NCBI GenBank assembly: GCA_010672825.2
Contig: JAAHFU020000001.1
Location: forward strand, 868,001 to 932,000
Length of the DNA: 64,000 nucleotides
From: Leptolyngbya sp. SIO1E4
Lineage (GTDB): Bacteria; Cyanobacteriota; Cyanobacteriia; Phormidesmidales; Phormidesmidaceae
Direction: 5' to 3'
The notes under the pieces are model-generated. The model was given only the letters and a program-made list of their open reading frames with translations. It did not search any database and was not told the DNA's origin. The position numbers and the translations under genes were made by a program. Below are positions 48,598 to 52,392 of the stretch, in pieces (the stretch's first letter is position 1; each line of letters begins with the position of its first letter).

Positions 48598-49221
48598 CTA
48601 TGCGTAGGTTGACTTGAGCTTGCGAGCCTGTACCCTACGGCGGCTGTAATGCTGGACAAAGTGCCTGACAATGTTCGGGTCAGACCAATTGAGGCAGGCT
48701 CGCTGTTCCAAAACAATGCGGGCTTCCCGATCCGTCATAGATTGCCCCCATGCTTTTGATTGCTGGCAAGCAACCCAGGTATTAAGCACCTGAAAAACCC
48801 GGGCCAGTTTATGCTCCGGAACTTTCCGGAGATGATACTGCTCCAGAATAACCGCCACTTCAGGCAGTCCTGCATTCCTCGCGAGCTGCGTACTCTCAGC
48901 AAACCAGATGTTTAAAGACGCCATCATCTCGCCATGGTCAAGGAATTCTTGTTCAAGTAAGTAATCGCTCAGGTAAATCGCACCTAGGTTCTTGAAATAG
49001 GCTGCCATGACGAGTGATTTTCGCCCTTGGGGGGTCAGTCCTAAAGCCTTGCTGTATGAGAGACAGAGTTCTGCTAAGTCACGGGACTCTCGCAACAACC
49101 ACTCCCCTTTTCGCTTCAGTAAACTTTCTAGAGTTTTAATGTAAGTTGTGAAACTGGGATAACTCATGACACCCTGATCAGCTCCTGCATGGTTAAGATC
49201 ATTCATAAACAGCTTCGCCAT
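48598..49221 (-). CDS. hypothetical protein, degenerate HD-GYP-like
   Basis: 207 residues, all-helical, with no signal or membrane segment. The middle part (SYSKALGLTPQGRKSLVMAA, then YFKNLGAIYLSDYLLEQ) follows the start of HD-GYP domains, but the metal-binding His-Asp pair is replaced by KN. The later HDExxDGxGYP region is not recognisable. If related, it would be a catalytically dead binding module. I do not recognise a specific family. It stands alone, 219 nt from the fusion gene. Confidence 0.6.
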   Translation of the reverse strand: MAKLFMNDLNHAGADQGVMSYPSFTTYIKTLESLLKRKGEWLLRESRDLAELCLSYSKALGLTPQGRKSLVMAAYFKNLGAIYLSDYLLEQEFLDHGEMMASLNIWFAESTQLARNAGLPEVAVILEQYHLRKVPEHKLARVFQVLNTWVACQQSKAWGQSMTDREARIVLEQRACLNWSDPNIVRHFVQHYSRRRVQARKLKSTYA

Positions 49222-49440: not shown

Positions 49441-52392
49441 TCACAGAATTTCTACTGTGCCCAAGGCTCCATCTAATCGCACCTGCTGCCCGTCCTGAAG
49501 TCGTTGGGTTGCGTCTGCAACGTCCATGACAGCAGGGATGCCATATTCTCGTGCCACAATCGCCCCGTGGGATAACTGGCCGCCCACTTCTGCAATCAGC
49601 CCTCCTGCCCGGGCGAGTAGGGGAGCCCACCCGGCATCGGTATAAGGCACCACCAGAATAGTGCGGGTGCTAACATCCTGAACGCCCTGCAGATTCGTCA
49701 ATACTTTTACGGTTCCTTCGACCTGTCCGGGGCTGGCCGCAATCCCCTTCAAGTTTTGTACGCCCGGACGGGTAGAAGGTCTGTAGCGGGCCAGGTTTGG
49801 CGGTTCATTGCCATAGACCAAATAAGGAATTGGATCAAGGGTTTTGTCTTGTTCGTAGCGGTGGCGGCGAGCAGCAATCACGTCAGCCCAGCTGCCTGGC
49901 AGCTGATGAGGATTACCTGCCAGGTGCGATCGCACCTCCTCATATTCCAGAAAGAAAATATCGCCCTCTGCTTGCAACCACCCCGCTGCGATGCCCTGGG
50001 TTTCCAGGGCCACAAAACACCCCCGCAGTTCCGCTAACAGACGGCTGTAGACCTCGGTCACTTGGCCCTTAAGGTTAAGGCGCCGCTGGATCATGGTCTG
50101 TTTCTTGGGAGGCGGTTGGTTGGTGTCTGGCGGGGGGCTTTCAGGGAGCGGTGACAGCACCAATTGGGTAAACAGTTCTTGAACGATGTGAGGCGCTTCT
50201 TGCCAGGTGGGGACAGCGATGTCCGTGCCCACTTCACTCAGGTAGCCGTAGCGCTCCAAGAATTGGTTGAACTGGGTGAGGATTGCCTTGCCAGCTGCCG
50301 CTTCTGCCAGTTTTGCAAAGAGGTCAGGGGTTGAGGAGATAGAGTCAAGGTCGGTTGGAGACAGCGATGTACGAGTATGCTCAGCAAGCTGCTTGAGCGC
50401 ATTAAGCGAAGCGACCTCAGGGTTTTGGCTGGCATCTAAAGCCGTATTGGGCACTTTGAAAATTGCCTGGCGGATGGCCAAACTCAGGGGAGCCAGGATG
50501 CTGTAATAGGTGGCCCGCTGTAGGGCGAGCAAAACTTGCTCAATTCTGCTGAGTAGGGCATTGGGATCCAGGGTTTTGGCAGGGGTTGCCTGTAGCGCTT
50601 GCAGCAGGGGATCAAAATGAGTTGCGCGATCGCCTTCAAAATCCTCCACCAGTCGCCATTCCCGTTGCACTAATCGTAAAAGACCAGGAAGGTTACGCAC
50701 AGTCGCACTCAGGGGTGGCTTGCTAAATTTAGCTCCACGCGTCAAGAACTCCAGACTTTCGGGGGGTAGCCCCATGCGCAGAAAGATGTCTCCTAAAAGC
50801 GAGGCATTAAAGTAAGCCCGTGAATGGTGCAGGGTGGCAGTTTCTTCAAAGTCTAGCCCTTGGGCTCTCGAACCCAGCACCACGGTAAAAATGTCACCCC
50901 AGACGCCGCAGGTGAGGGGTCGGTTAATGGACCAGGTCAGCGGCCGAATCAGTCCTGGAATCACCTCTGCTGCAATCTTGCGTGTCCAAAGGGGATAGAG
51001 GGTCGTAATCGGGCGACTTTGTAGCAGCCAGAGGCGATCGCCCTCAACGCTCCACTCAATATCCTGGGGCATGCCTTGGGAACGCTTTTCCAAATGGCGA
51101 GCGAGGAAGGCGACCTGTTCCAGCAAGCGGGTGGGGACTTCACCGGTGCCCGCCGTAGAGCCCTCTACTGTGAGCGTCAGAGCATCCGGAATTTTCCAGC
51201 TATCCGGCTCACTCAGGTCATCGGGAAGGTCGTCTGCCTGCACAATGACCCGATAGCTCTCGGGGGTGTGCTGGCCTGACACCACCTGACTAGCAGCACC
51301 TGGCAGCGCTTCAATTACCACTGCATCGCCCGCACGGGTAATGGGGTCTCGGCTAAAAGCGACCCCAGAATACTCCCCCTTTACCTGCTGCTGCACCAGT
51401 ACCGCCATCCCCTGGTCTGGCAAGCCGCGATCTTGACGATACTGTACTGCCCCCGGATTGTTGTAAGAGCTGAAACAGCGGGCAATTGCCGTTGCCAGTG
51501 CGTCCTGGGTGGTGATGTTGAGAATAGAGGTGTATTGCCCAGCGGCTGAAGCCTCAAGGGTATCTTCTGCGATTGCAGACGATCTCACCACTATCGGCTG
51601 CGTCGGGGAAGGTTCGGTGATGGCAATCAGCATTGCCGGATCATCCCCCGCAGGCAGGACGTAGCCCCGAGGCACCGGATAGCCCCAAGCCGTTAGCTGA
51701 GAGAGGGTTGCCCCTTTGCCCCCGGCTTTTTCTGCCGGCAGGACTTTTGATAAAGGCAGCAGTGCGCGATCGCCCCGAAAAAATTTAAACATACGCTGAG
51801 ATTCAACCCGTGCGCCTGACGTCGGCATCTCCAGATCGTCCGGCATTTTTTGATAAATCCATGCAATGAGACCGCTGAGGCAGGCAACTGCCAGAATGCG
51901 CATTCCATCTTGGTGGCGCAGCGCTGTGAGTATTGGCAGCAACACCAGTACTAACAATCGACCCTGGCGCTTCTCTCGAAAGAGGGTAAACCCTAGAAAA
52001 CTAATCAGAAAGGTTAATCCAGAAGTAATCGGATCATGGACGATAAAGCCCCAAGTAACATTGGTCGTGCCGGCTCCCTTCGCGCCCCAGTAGCGTCCCA
52101 TGACCAGGGCCACCAAGGCCACTACTTCCCACACTGGATCCGTAGGAAAGTAATACCGAGCTAGCAAAACCGCCCCAATTCCCTTACCAGCTTCTGCTAA
52201 GACACAGAGAACACCTGCGATTTTCCCCCCATGGTAAAACGCCGCTGAGACCCCTACGTTGCCTGTCCCCAGCGTTGCTAGATTCTGATCAGCCACGAGC
52301 CGCACAATCCACCGGGTCAGGGGTAGCGCCCCTAACAGCGGACAGATAGTAAAAATCAGTAGTGCGCCCCAAACTTGGGCCAATGTCAGCAT
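49441..52392 (-). CDS. fusion of a PlsY-like membrane domain and a PEP-synthase-like phosphotransferase
   Basis: 983 residues. Residues 1-185 form a polytopic domain like the acyltransferase PlsY, with LGTGNVGVSAAF, AEAGKGIGAVL, YWGAKGAGTTN and ALRHQDGMRIL in PlsY order; the usual His of the GH-F motif is not clear. From about residue 205 comes a PEP/pyruvate-binding (PPDK_N) ATP-grasp domain (KAGGKGATLSQLTAWGYPVP, VVRSSAIAEDTLEASAAGQY, DIEWSVEGDRLWLLQSRPIT). A middle domain of about 300 residues follows, then the swivelling His domain with GGQLSHGAIVAREYGIPAV. This layout resembles PEP synthase and rifampicin phosphotransferase, joined to a membrane anchor. The substrate is unknown. There is no separate PlsY nearby. 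Confidence 0.88.
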   Translation of the reverse strand: MLTLAQVWGALLIFTICPLLGALPLTRWIVRLVADQNLATLGTGNVGVSAAFYHGGKIAGVLCVLAEAGKGIGAVLLARYYFPTDPVWEVVALVALVMGRYWGAKGAGTTNVTWGFIVHDPITSGLTFLISFLGFTLFREKRQGRLLVLVLLPILTALRHQDGMRILAVACLSGLIAWIYQKMPDDLEMPTSGARVESQRMFKFFRGDRALLPLSKVLPAEKAGGKGATLSQLTAWGYPVPRGYVLPAGDDPAMLIAITEPSPTQPIVVRSSAIAEDTLEASAAGQYTSILNITTQDALATAIARCFSSYNNPGAVQYRQDRGLPDQGMAVLVQQQVKGEYSGVAFSRDPITRAGDAVVIEALPGAASQVVSGQHTPESYRVIVQADDLPDDLSEPDSWKIPDALTLTVEGSTAGTGEVPTRLLEQVAFLARHLEKRSQGMPQDIEWSVEGDRLWLLQSRPITTLYPLWTRKIAAEVIPGLIRPLTWSINRPLTCGVWGDIFTVVLGSRAQGLDFEETATLHHSRAYFNASLLGDIFLRMGLPPESLEFLTRGAKFSKPPLSATVRNLPGLLRLVQREWRLVEDFEGDRATHFDPLLQALQATPAKTLDPNALLSRIEQVLLALQRATYYSILAPLSLAIRQAIFKVPNTALDASQNPEVASLNALKQLAEHTRTSLSPTDLDSISSTPDLFAKLAEAAAGKAILTQFNQFLERYGYLSEVGTDIAVPTWQEAPHIVQELFTQLVLSPLPESPPPDTNQPPPKKQTMIQRRLNLKGQVTEVYSRLLAELRGCFVALETQGIAAGWLQAEGDIFFLEYEEVRSHLAGNPHQLPGSWADVIAARRHRYEQDKTLDPIPYLVYGNEPPNLARYRPSTRPGVQNLKGIAASPGQVEGTVKVLTNLQGVQDVSTRTILVVPYTDAGWAPLLARAGGLIAEVGGQLSHGAIVAREYGIPAVMDVADATQRLQDGQQVRLDGALGTVEIL

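Follow-up and report, generated by a model that had tools for sequence, protein, structure and literature searches.

What could a single chain do that joins the fold of PlsY, the membrane-bound acyl-phosphate:glycerol-3-phosphate acyltransferase at the start of phospholipid synthesis, to a complete dikinase? This question is raised by a gene in a stretch of 64,000 nucleotides from the cyanobacterium Leptolyngbya sp. SIO1E4 (contig JAAHFU020000001.1, positions 868,001 to 932,000), called the window in the following. The gene lies at 49441–52392 on the minus strand, as do all of its parts given below, and its open reading frame runs from an ATG through 983 amino acids to the stop without an internal stop. 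Judged by its sequence, the encoded protein (here called the fusion) is a relative of PlsY and of rifampin phosphotransferase (RPH) and not a PEP synthase, and its PlsY-like site appears to be largely kept on the acyl-phosphate/oxyanion side and rebuilt on the glycerol-3-phosphate (G3P) side. It is conserved and uncharacterised; its parts are known and the combination is a new variant of them. Its domains make an annotation as PlsY or PEP synthase likely, and no title or abstract start listed by our searches of open-licence PMC papers described the fusion.

A PlsY-like membrane domain and an RPH-type dikinase in one chain

A preliminary description of this DNA had proposed a PlsY-like domain followed by ATP-grasp and swivelling His domains, and both Pfam and structure matches agree with these domains and their order. 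The N-terminal membrane domain (residues 1–207; 51772–52392) matches G3P_acyltransf (PF02660) at residues 16–180 with E 1.8e-18 and 67.6 bits against a cut-off of 24.1, and it aligns with PlsY in a profile-profile comparison with E 1.4e-12. An AlphaFold2 model of the fusion (m51b6b75cf07c) was built from 70 sequences with a mean pLDDT of 85.6 and a pTM of 0.67. Its residues 7–207 were superposed by VIA-align on PlsY 5xj7 with Z 18.3 and 2.9 Å over 180 residues, which together with the PF02660 score assigns the domain to the seven-helix PlsY fold and bears out the proposed alignment with PlsY. Foldseek against the PDB returned RPH-Lm 5fbs first (E 3.6e-30) and also PlsY 5xj5 (E 1.6e-4, TM 0.76 by target length). 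When the N-terminal domain by itself was compared by sequence with solved chains, nothing but a chance match (E 0.4) came up; the kinship with PlsY is one of profiles (Pfam and profile-profile) and of the predicted model, not of direct sequence search.

The remaining chain follows the RPH-type order of ATP-grasp, acceptor domain and C-terminal swivel His domain. The ATP-grasp domain (residues 208–466; 50995–51771) contains PPDK_N at residues 264–465 (E 2.8e-47, above cut-off); taken alone it fits 5hv6_A with Z 22.1 and 2.2 Å over 226 residues, and the HpeI structure 9goj fits residues 208–467 with Z 19.2. The acceptor-binding domain (residues 467–879; 49756–50994) is of the RPH rifampin-binding-domain type by the RPH-Lm profile alignment and the match to 5fbu, and the swivel phosphohistidine domain (residues 880–983; 49444–49755) is recognised by the RPH-Lm alignment and by PEP-utilizers at residues 910–978 (E 2.9e-22, above cut-off). 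As a whole the dikinase half matches the profile of RPH 5fbs with E 6.9e-82, the alignment to residues 547–866 of RPH-Lm covering the fusion from about residue 680 on. Residues 206–983 of the model match RPH 5hv2 with Z 34.6 over 647 residues at a root-mean-square deviation (rmsd) of 21.6 Å, which we put down to domain movement and which is no gauge of the single-domain fit, and the acceptor and swivel residues 463–983 match 5fbu with Z 18.5 at an rmsd of 22.4 Å.

The ATP-side residues of RPH and its phosphorylated His are present. R270, E446 and H942 (codon 49567–49569) align with R117, E297 and H825 of RPH-Lm, and each is found in all of 70 aligned fusion rows, the set used for the counts below; K226, Q458 and R460 are likewise invariant, with K226 equated to Lys22 by motif and not by residue alignment. 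According to excerpts of PMC4844700 Glu297 is dispensable in RPH, and the second phosphotransfer depends on the pair Arg666-Glu667 of block 9, which even the remotest of the clades named there retains. On this acceptor side the fusion departs from RPH, as the place of the pair is taken by Lys775-Gly776 in the 9/9 fusion rows shown; over the 70 rows the two columns hold Lys in 69 and Gln in one, and Gly in 60 and Asn in 10. Among unfused relatives Arg-Glu stands there in L077, L079, L080 and L082, Lys-Glu in L078 and neither in L081. The fusion further differs from RPH-Lm (5fbs, 5hv1-3) in its N-terminal membrane domain and in an acceptor pocket sequence of its own. Sequence and model together show a domain of PlsY fold and, complete in its ATP and phosphohistidine parts, a dikinase of RPH type (ATP-to-AMP) whose acceptor site is altered.

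The dikinase half had been called PEP-synthase-like, a label that has to be replaced by RPH-like, as the His domain is C-terminal and the solved structures that match best are those of RPH-Lm. PEP synthase and pyruvate phosphate dikinase share the ATP-grasp and swivel His domains, but they carry the His domain mid-chain, and the PEP/pyruvate-binding domain that is C-terminal in PEP synthase has no Pfam match in the fusion up to E 1. PEP synthase was also rejected by NCBIfam, whose PEP-synthase models stayed below their cut-offs among the 25 of 33 matches shown, the best reaching 277.5 against 945 bits. Other RPH relatives are the two-component small-molecule dikinases HpeHI, CreHI and PpsAB, which act on phenols (PMC12167813, in excerpts). 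They have the same RPH-type ATP-grasp and acceptor/swivel parts, but as two separate proteins, whereas the fusion is one chain with a membrane domain; those excerpts mention no lipid-linked member among the two-piece relatives.

Distribution across Cyanobacteria

A scan of genome contigs found 117 loci, and the 80 best were retained (L003–L082). Among these best 80, the titles of 73 of the 74 loci L003–L076 are those of cyanobacteria. The remaining one, L059, is listed under Gracilibacteria, and its match of 56% suggests that the contig is cyanobacterial and was mis-binned. In the six retained loci outside Cyanobacteria (L077–L082) the dikinase part alone was matched. Leaving aside the partial match L076, 69 of the 73 loci L003–L075 hold a full-length match in a single frame with about 49–73% identity; the other four (L050, L051, L058 and L061) are partial, broken or discontinuous. 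The phyletic spread, which the preliminary description had wished to see checked, is considerable: matches with E 1e-80 or better occur in 103 of 386 genomes sampled from the phylum and in 61 of 143 genera, with 283 genomes lacking a match at this threshold.

Both parts lie in one sufficiently long frame in 101 of the 103 matching genomes, and the PlsY part is among the listed matched pieces in 94. In seven single-frame genomes of family f11 (G039, G099, G195, G203, G320, G336 and G354) the dikinase part alone passed 1e-80; the genes were fetched and in all seven the PlsY part and the dikinase share one frame of 1002–1101 amino acids. In G215 (L098:1131-4210), a draft assembly of 120 contigs, the halves stand in two overlapping frames of 215 and 836 amino acids, a split at the PlsY/linker border that is probably due to a small indel, and in G074 the pieces lie on two contigs. 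Because the fusion recurs at full length in one frame across so many genomes, and is unbroken over the 983 codons of the window, an assembly join or frameshift as its origin is ruled out and the gene can be regarded as a single one. Two related arrangements were seen beside it. Genome G170 has a 601-aa paralog (L100:2329-4134, minus strand) with a PlsY-like part, ATP-grasp and His domain, which matches the fusion at residues 1–460 and 880–983 only, lacks the acceptor domain and has a degenerate PlsY motif 1. Six Microcystis loci (L040, L042, L047, L048, L049 and L066) carry a 745-aa frame beside the fusion with 36–38% identity to residues 881–982 of its His domain.

This breadth bears on the suggestion that the substrate might be antibiotic-like, for which nothing we saw speaks. 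With RPH-Lm as the closest solved relative one could think of a membrane kinase that detoxifies compounds or modifies antibiotics. Against this, 215 of 217 genomes of family f7, which holds G051 and is by inference only Nostocaceae, have at least two PF02660 matches (217/217 have one), the second of which is taken to be the fusion, as directly shown for G233 and G103; and the acceptor pocket stretch is uniform. Residues 467–570 (50683–50994) are the top conserved of nine compared segments, with 48 of 104 columns invariant and a mean pairwise identity of 0.805 among 39 non-redundant sequences, which points to one common acceptor. Broad presence and a conserved acceptor stretch would fit core metabolism better than resistance, and we regard a detoxifying role as very improbable. 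PADLOC gave no match for a defence protein.

The PlsY-like site and genomes without plsY

The genome of strain SIO1E4 (8.2 Mb) also encodes a separate, ordinary plsY, a possibility raised for checking in the preliminary description; its PF02660 match is much stronger than that of the fusion (E 7.9e-52 versus 2.2e-19). We therefore compared the fusion residue by residue with PlsY (YgiH; Aquifex 5xj5–5xj9) in the profile-profile alignment, which is least sure in its last third (S142, H177 and N180), with the roles of the residues taken from excerpts of PMC5700162. In common with PlsY are the fold, the GxGN motif 1, a K/R-G loop ahead of membrane helix 4 and the oxyanion Asn. This Asn37 is N45 of the fusion in 70/70 rows, and the acyl-carbonyl Thr41 corresponds to S49 (Ser in 60 rows, Thr in 7, Gln in 2, Ala in 1); the pair is kept except for an Ala at the T41 place in genomes G051, G064, G233 and G103. 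A40 is aligned with V48 and G105 with G106. For the phosphate clamp of G3P (Ser35, Arg45, Lys104, Asn180) the result is different, as S35 is replaced by T43, R45 by Y53 and N180 by D185 in 70/70 rows each, and the Lys place alone is mostly kept (K104 to K105; Lys in 41 rows, Arg in 22, neither in 7). Also replaced are both contacts to the 2-OH of G3P, S142 by R145 (Arg 43, Lys 27) and H177 by K182 (Lys 46, Gln 14, Arg 8). In nine canonical PlsY (that of Aquifex, that of this genome and seven others) S35, T41, R45, H92, K104, S142, H177 and N180 are present in 9/9; place 37 is Ser in four of them and thus variable there too. The phosphate hole of PlsY lies at the start of TMH4 (PMC5700162, in excerpts), and in the model the loop 105–108 comes right before the helix starting at 109. 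The PlsY catalytic residues, whose alignment had been called for, are accordingly mostly retained where acyl-phosphate is handled and mostly lost where G3P is bound. Because of this loss, PlsY-like as a name for the predicted domain is not to be equated with lysophosphatidic acid synthesis.

Loss of several residues required for PlsY activity could also mean that the domain is a membrane anchor only, with the dikinase acting on a small molecule that has nothing to do with lipids. In an anchor one would expect more drift than the domain shows: its mean pairwise identity of 0.585 (28 of 181 columns invariant) is like that of the two ATP-grasp halves (0.569 and 0.585), all among the 39 non-redundant sequences, and T43, N45, Y53, H54, E67, K70, R100, T110, N111, D185 and D186 are among the residues invariant in the 70 rows, with Y53 and K70 varying in family f11. 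We consider a mere anchor improbable. The f11 loci L101–L104, L106 and L107, with about 38–45% identity, show FIHGG for FYHGG and ARG or GRG for xKG in this domain.

Slightly less improbable, but in our view still unlikely, is a second, redundant glycerol-3-phosphate acyltransferase whose PlsY-like domain would still make lysophosphatidic acid while the dikinase feeds or regulates it. It would gain from the S35T variant of Aquifex PlsY, which retains 17% activity, but R45, S142, H177 and N180 are replaced in the fusion and H92 falls into a gap, and in the Aquifex enzyme R45K loses over 90% and N180D over 95% of the activity (PMC5700162, in excerpts). Moreover, as judged by the best PF02660 E-value, 101 of the 103 genomes with the fusion have a canonical plsY as well.

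The two others, G051 and G064, have the fusion as their single, weak PF02660 match. Both assemblies are rated 99% complete, with 1 and 2 contigs, and the gene order shared with a congener is interrupted at or close to the site of plsY, where there are no runs of N. From these genomes, which belong to different genera, the neighbours plsY and DUF3086 are both missing (L094 of G051 and L096 of G064, compared with L095 of G233 and L097 of G103), and neither gene was found elsewhere in G051 or G064; their joint absence may mean that DUF3086 works with PlsY. Both genomes retain plsX, and the PF01553 acyltransferases are no more numerous than in the plsY-bearing congener (3 and 3 in one pair, 4 and 4 in the other). 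This combination, which would also suit a redundant acyltransferase, hints that the fusion may be able to support lipid acylation there. The fusions of both genomes have motif 1 and the loop in the altered form seen elsewhere, with no return to canonical residues, and at the T41 place they have an Ala that also occurs in the plsY-bearing congeners; this Ala speaks against a strong PlsY-type activity because T41A is severe in Aquifex PlsY (excerpts of PMC5700162).

A possible reaction and its place in lipid metabolism

As a tentative reading, and one we hold with clear reserve, we propose that the fusion is an enzyme with two sites that sits in the membrane and serves the lipid metabolism of cyanobacteria: its dikinase would make an acyl-phosphate and its PlsY-like site would transfer the acyl group. 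ATP would phosphorylate His942, and the swivel domain would deliver this phosphoryl group to the acceptor domain. The molecule phosphorylated there is probably a carboxylate, namely a free fatty acid, which would be turned into its acyl-phosphate. The PlsY-like domain could then take over the acyl-phosphate and pass the acyl group to an acceptor other than free G3P, or to one held differently. In this way the fusion might provide a PlsX-independent activation of recycled fatty acids and return them to lipids. Since the use of acyl-phosphate is what PlsY is known for among membrane enzymes, this compound would be the natural intermediate common to both halves. Loss of the RPH glutamate, which would repel a carboxylate, would suit such an acceptor, and the route is consistent with a PlsY-like site that mostly keeps its handling of acyl carbonyl and phosphate and with a gene for a GDSL lipase/acylhydrolase (Pfam was run on the L025 copy only) that in 18 of 74 loci (the 73 loci and the window) stands upstream of the fusion and is divergent to it.

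Several points weigh against the acyl-phosphate route. Cyanobacteria already own an acyl-ACP synthetase for recycled fatty acids. At the PlsY-like site the phosphate-hole residue H92 lies opposite an alignment gap, with the invariant R100 nearby; six of the seven fetched f11 fusions have Ile for Y53 and Arg for K70, and in the seventh, from G320, the motif was not found. The Ala at the T41 place of G051, G064, G233 and G103, with the severe effect of T41A, counts here as well. The absence of plsY in G051 and G064 is possibly due to mis-assembly at the rearranged places, and DUF3086 is missing along with it. None of the neighbouring genes recurs in all 74 loci, and the GDSL gene may reflect plain synteny, as its loci are titled as related filamentous genera. 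Finally, the known acceptors of the RPH family are hydroxyls, the C21-OH of rifampin and phenols, and not carboxylates (PMC4844700 and PMC12167813, both in excerpts).

The last point leads to a lipid kinase, in which the PlsY-fold domain would bind or present a lipid or prenol alcohol such as monoacylglycerol, diacylglycerol or phytol, perhaps after acylating it, and the dikinase would phosphorylate the hydroxyl. We rate the phosphorylation of a membrane-bound lipid, as put forward in the preliminary description, about as likely as the acyl-phosphate route. The lost G3P clamp would suit an unphosphorylated acceptor, and a version in which glycerol is acylated and then phosphorylated would yield lysophosphatidic acid without G3P and account for the two genomes without plsY. 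However, the RPH Arg-Glu pair, which persists even in the remotest of the clades that the excerpts of PMC4844700 name, is Lys-Gly or Lys-Asn here, and an oxyanion Asn in 70/70 rows with an acyl-carbonyl Ser or Thr in 67/70 would be needless in a mere binding domain. Fatty acid activation as acyl-phosphate seems to us slightly more likely.

The largest cluster of neighbouring genes, found in 21 of the 74 loci, is mixed and probably consists of several genes linked together, its longest member resembling by eye a multi-PAS sensor kinase. In 12 loci (L014, L016, L028 and nine others) the next gene downstream on the strand of the fusion is a small one that looks cupin-like by eye, with a gap of 0–3 bases in nine of the 12. 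In the window an HD_5-domain protein (Pfam E 3e-07) is encoded at 48598–49221 on the minus strand, downstream of the fusion.

In summary, a large enzyme for which we found no function in print is kept across much of Cyanobacteria. If the acyl-phosphate route is true, photosynthetic membranes would have an extra route of fatty-acid activation and the RPH dikinase family would reach into lipids. Going further, a one-protein, PlsX-independent acyl-phosphate pathway with a new acyl acceptor, which in some genomes stands in for the otherwise essential plsY, is a more doubtful prospect. The genomes without plsY, if they are real, would make the function of the fusion directly testable.

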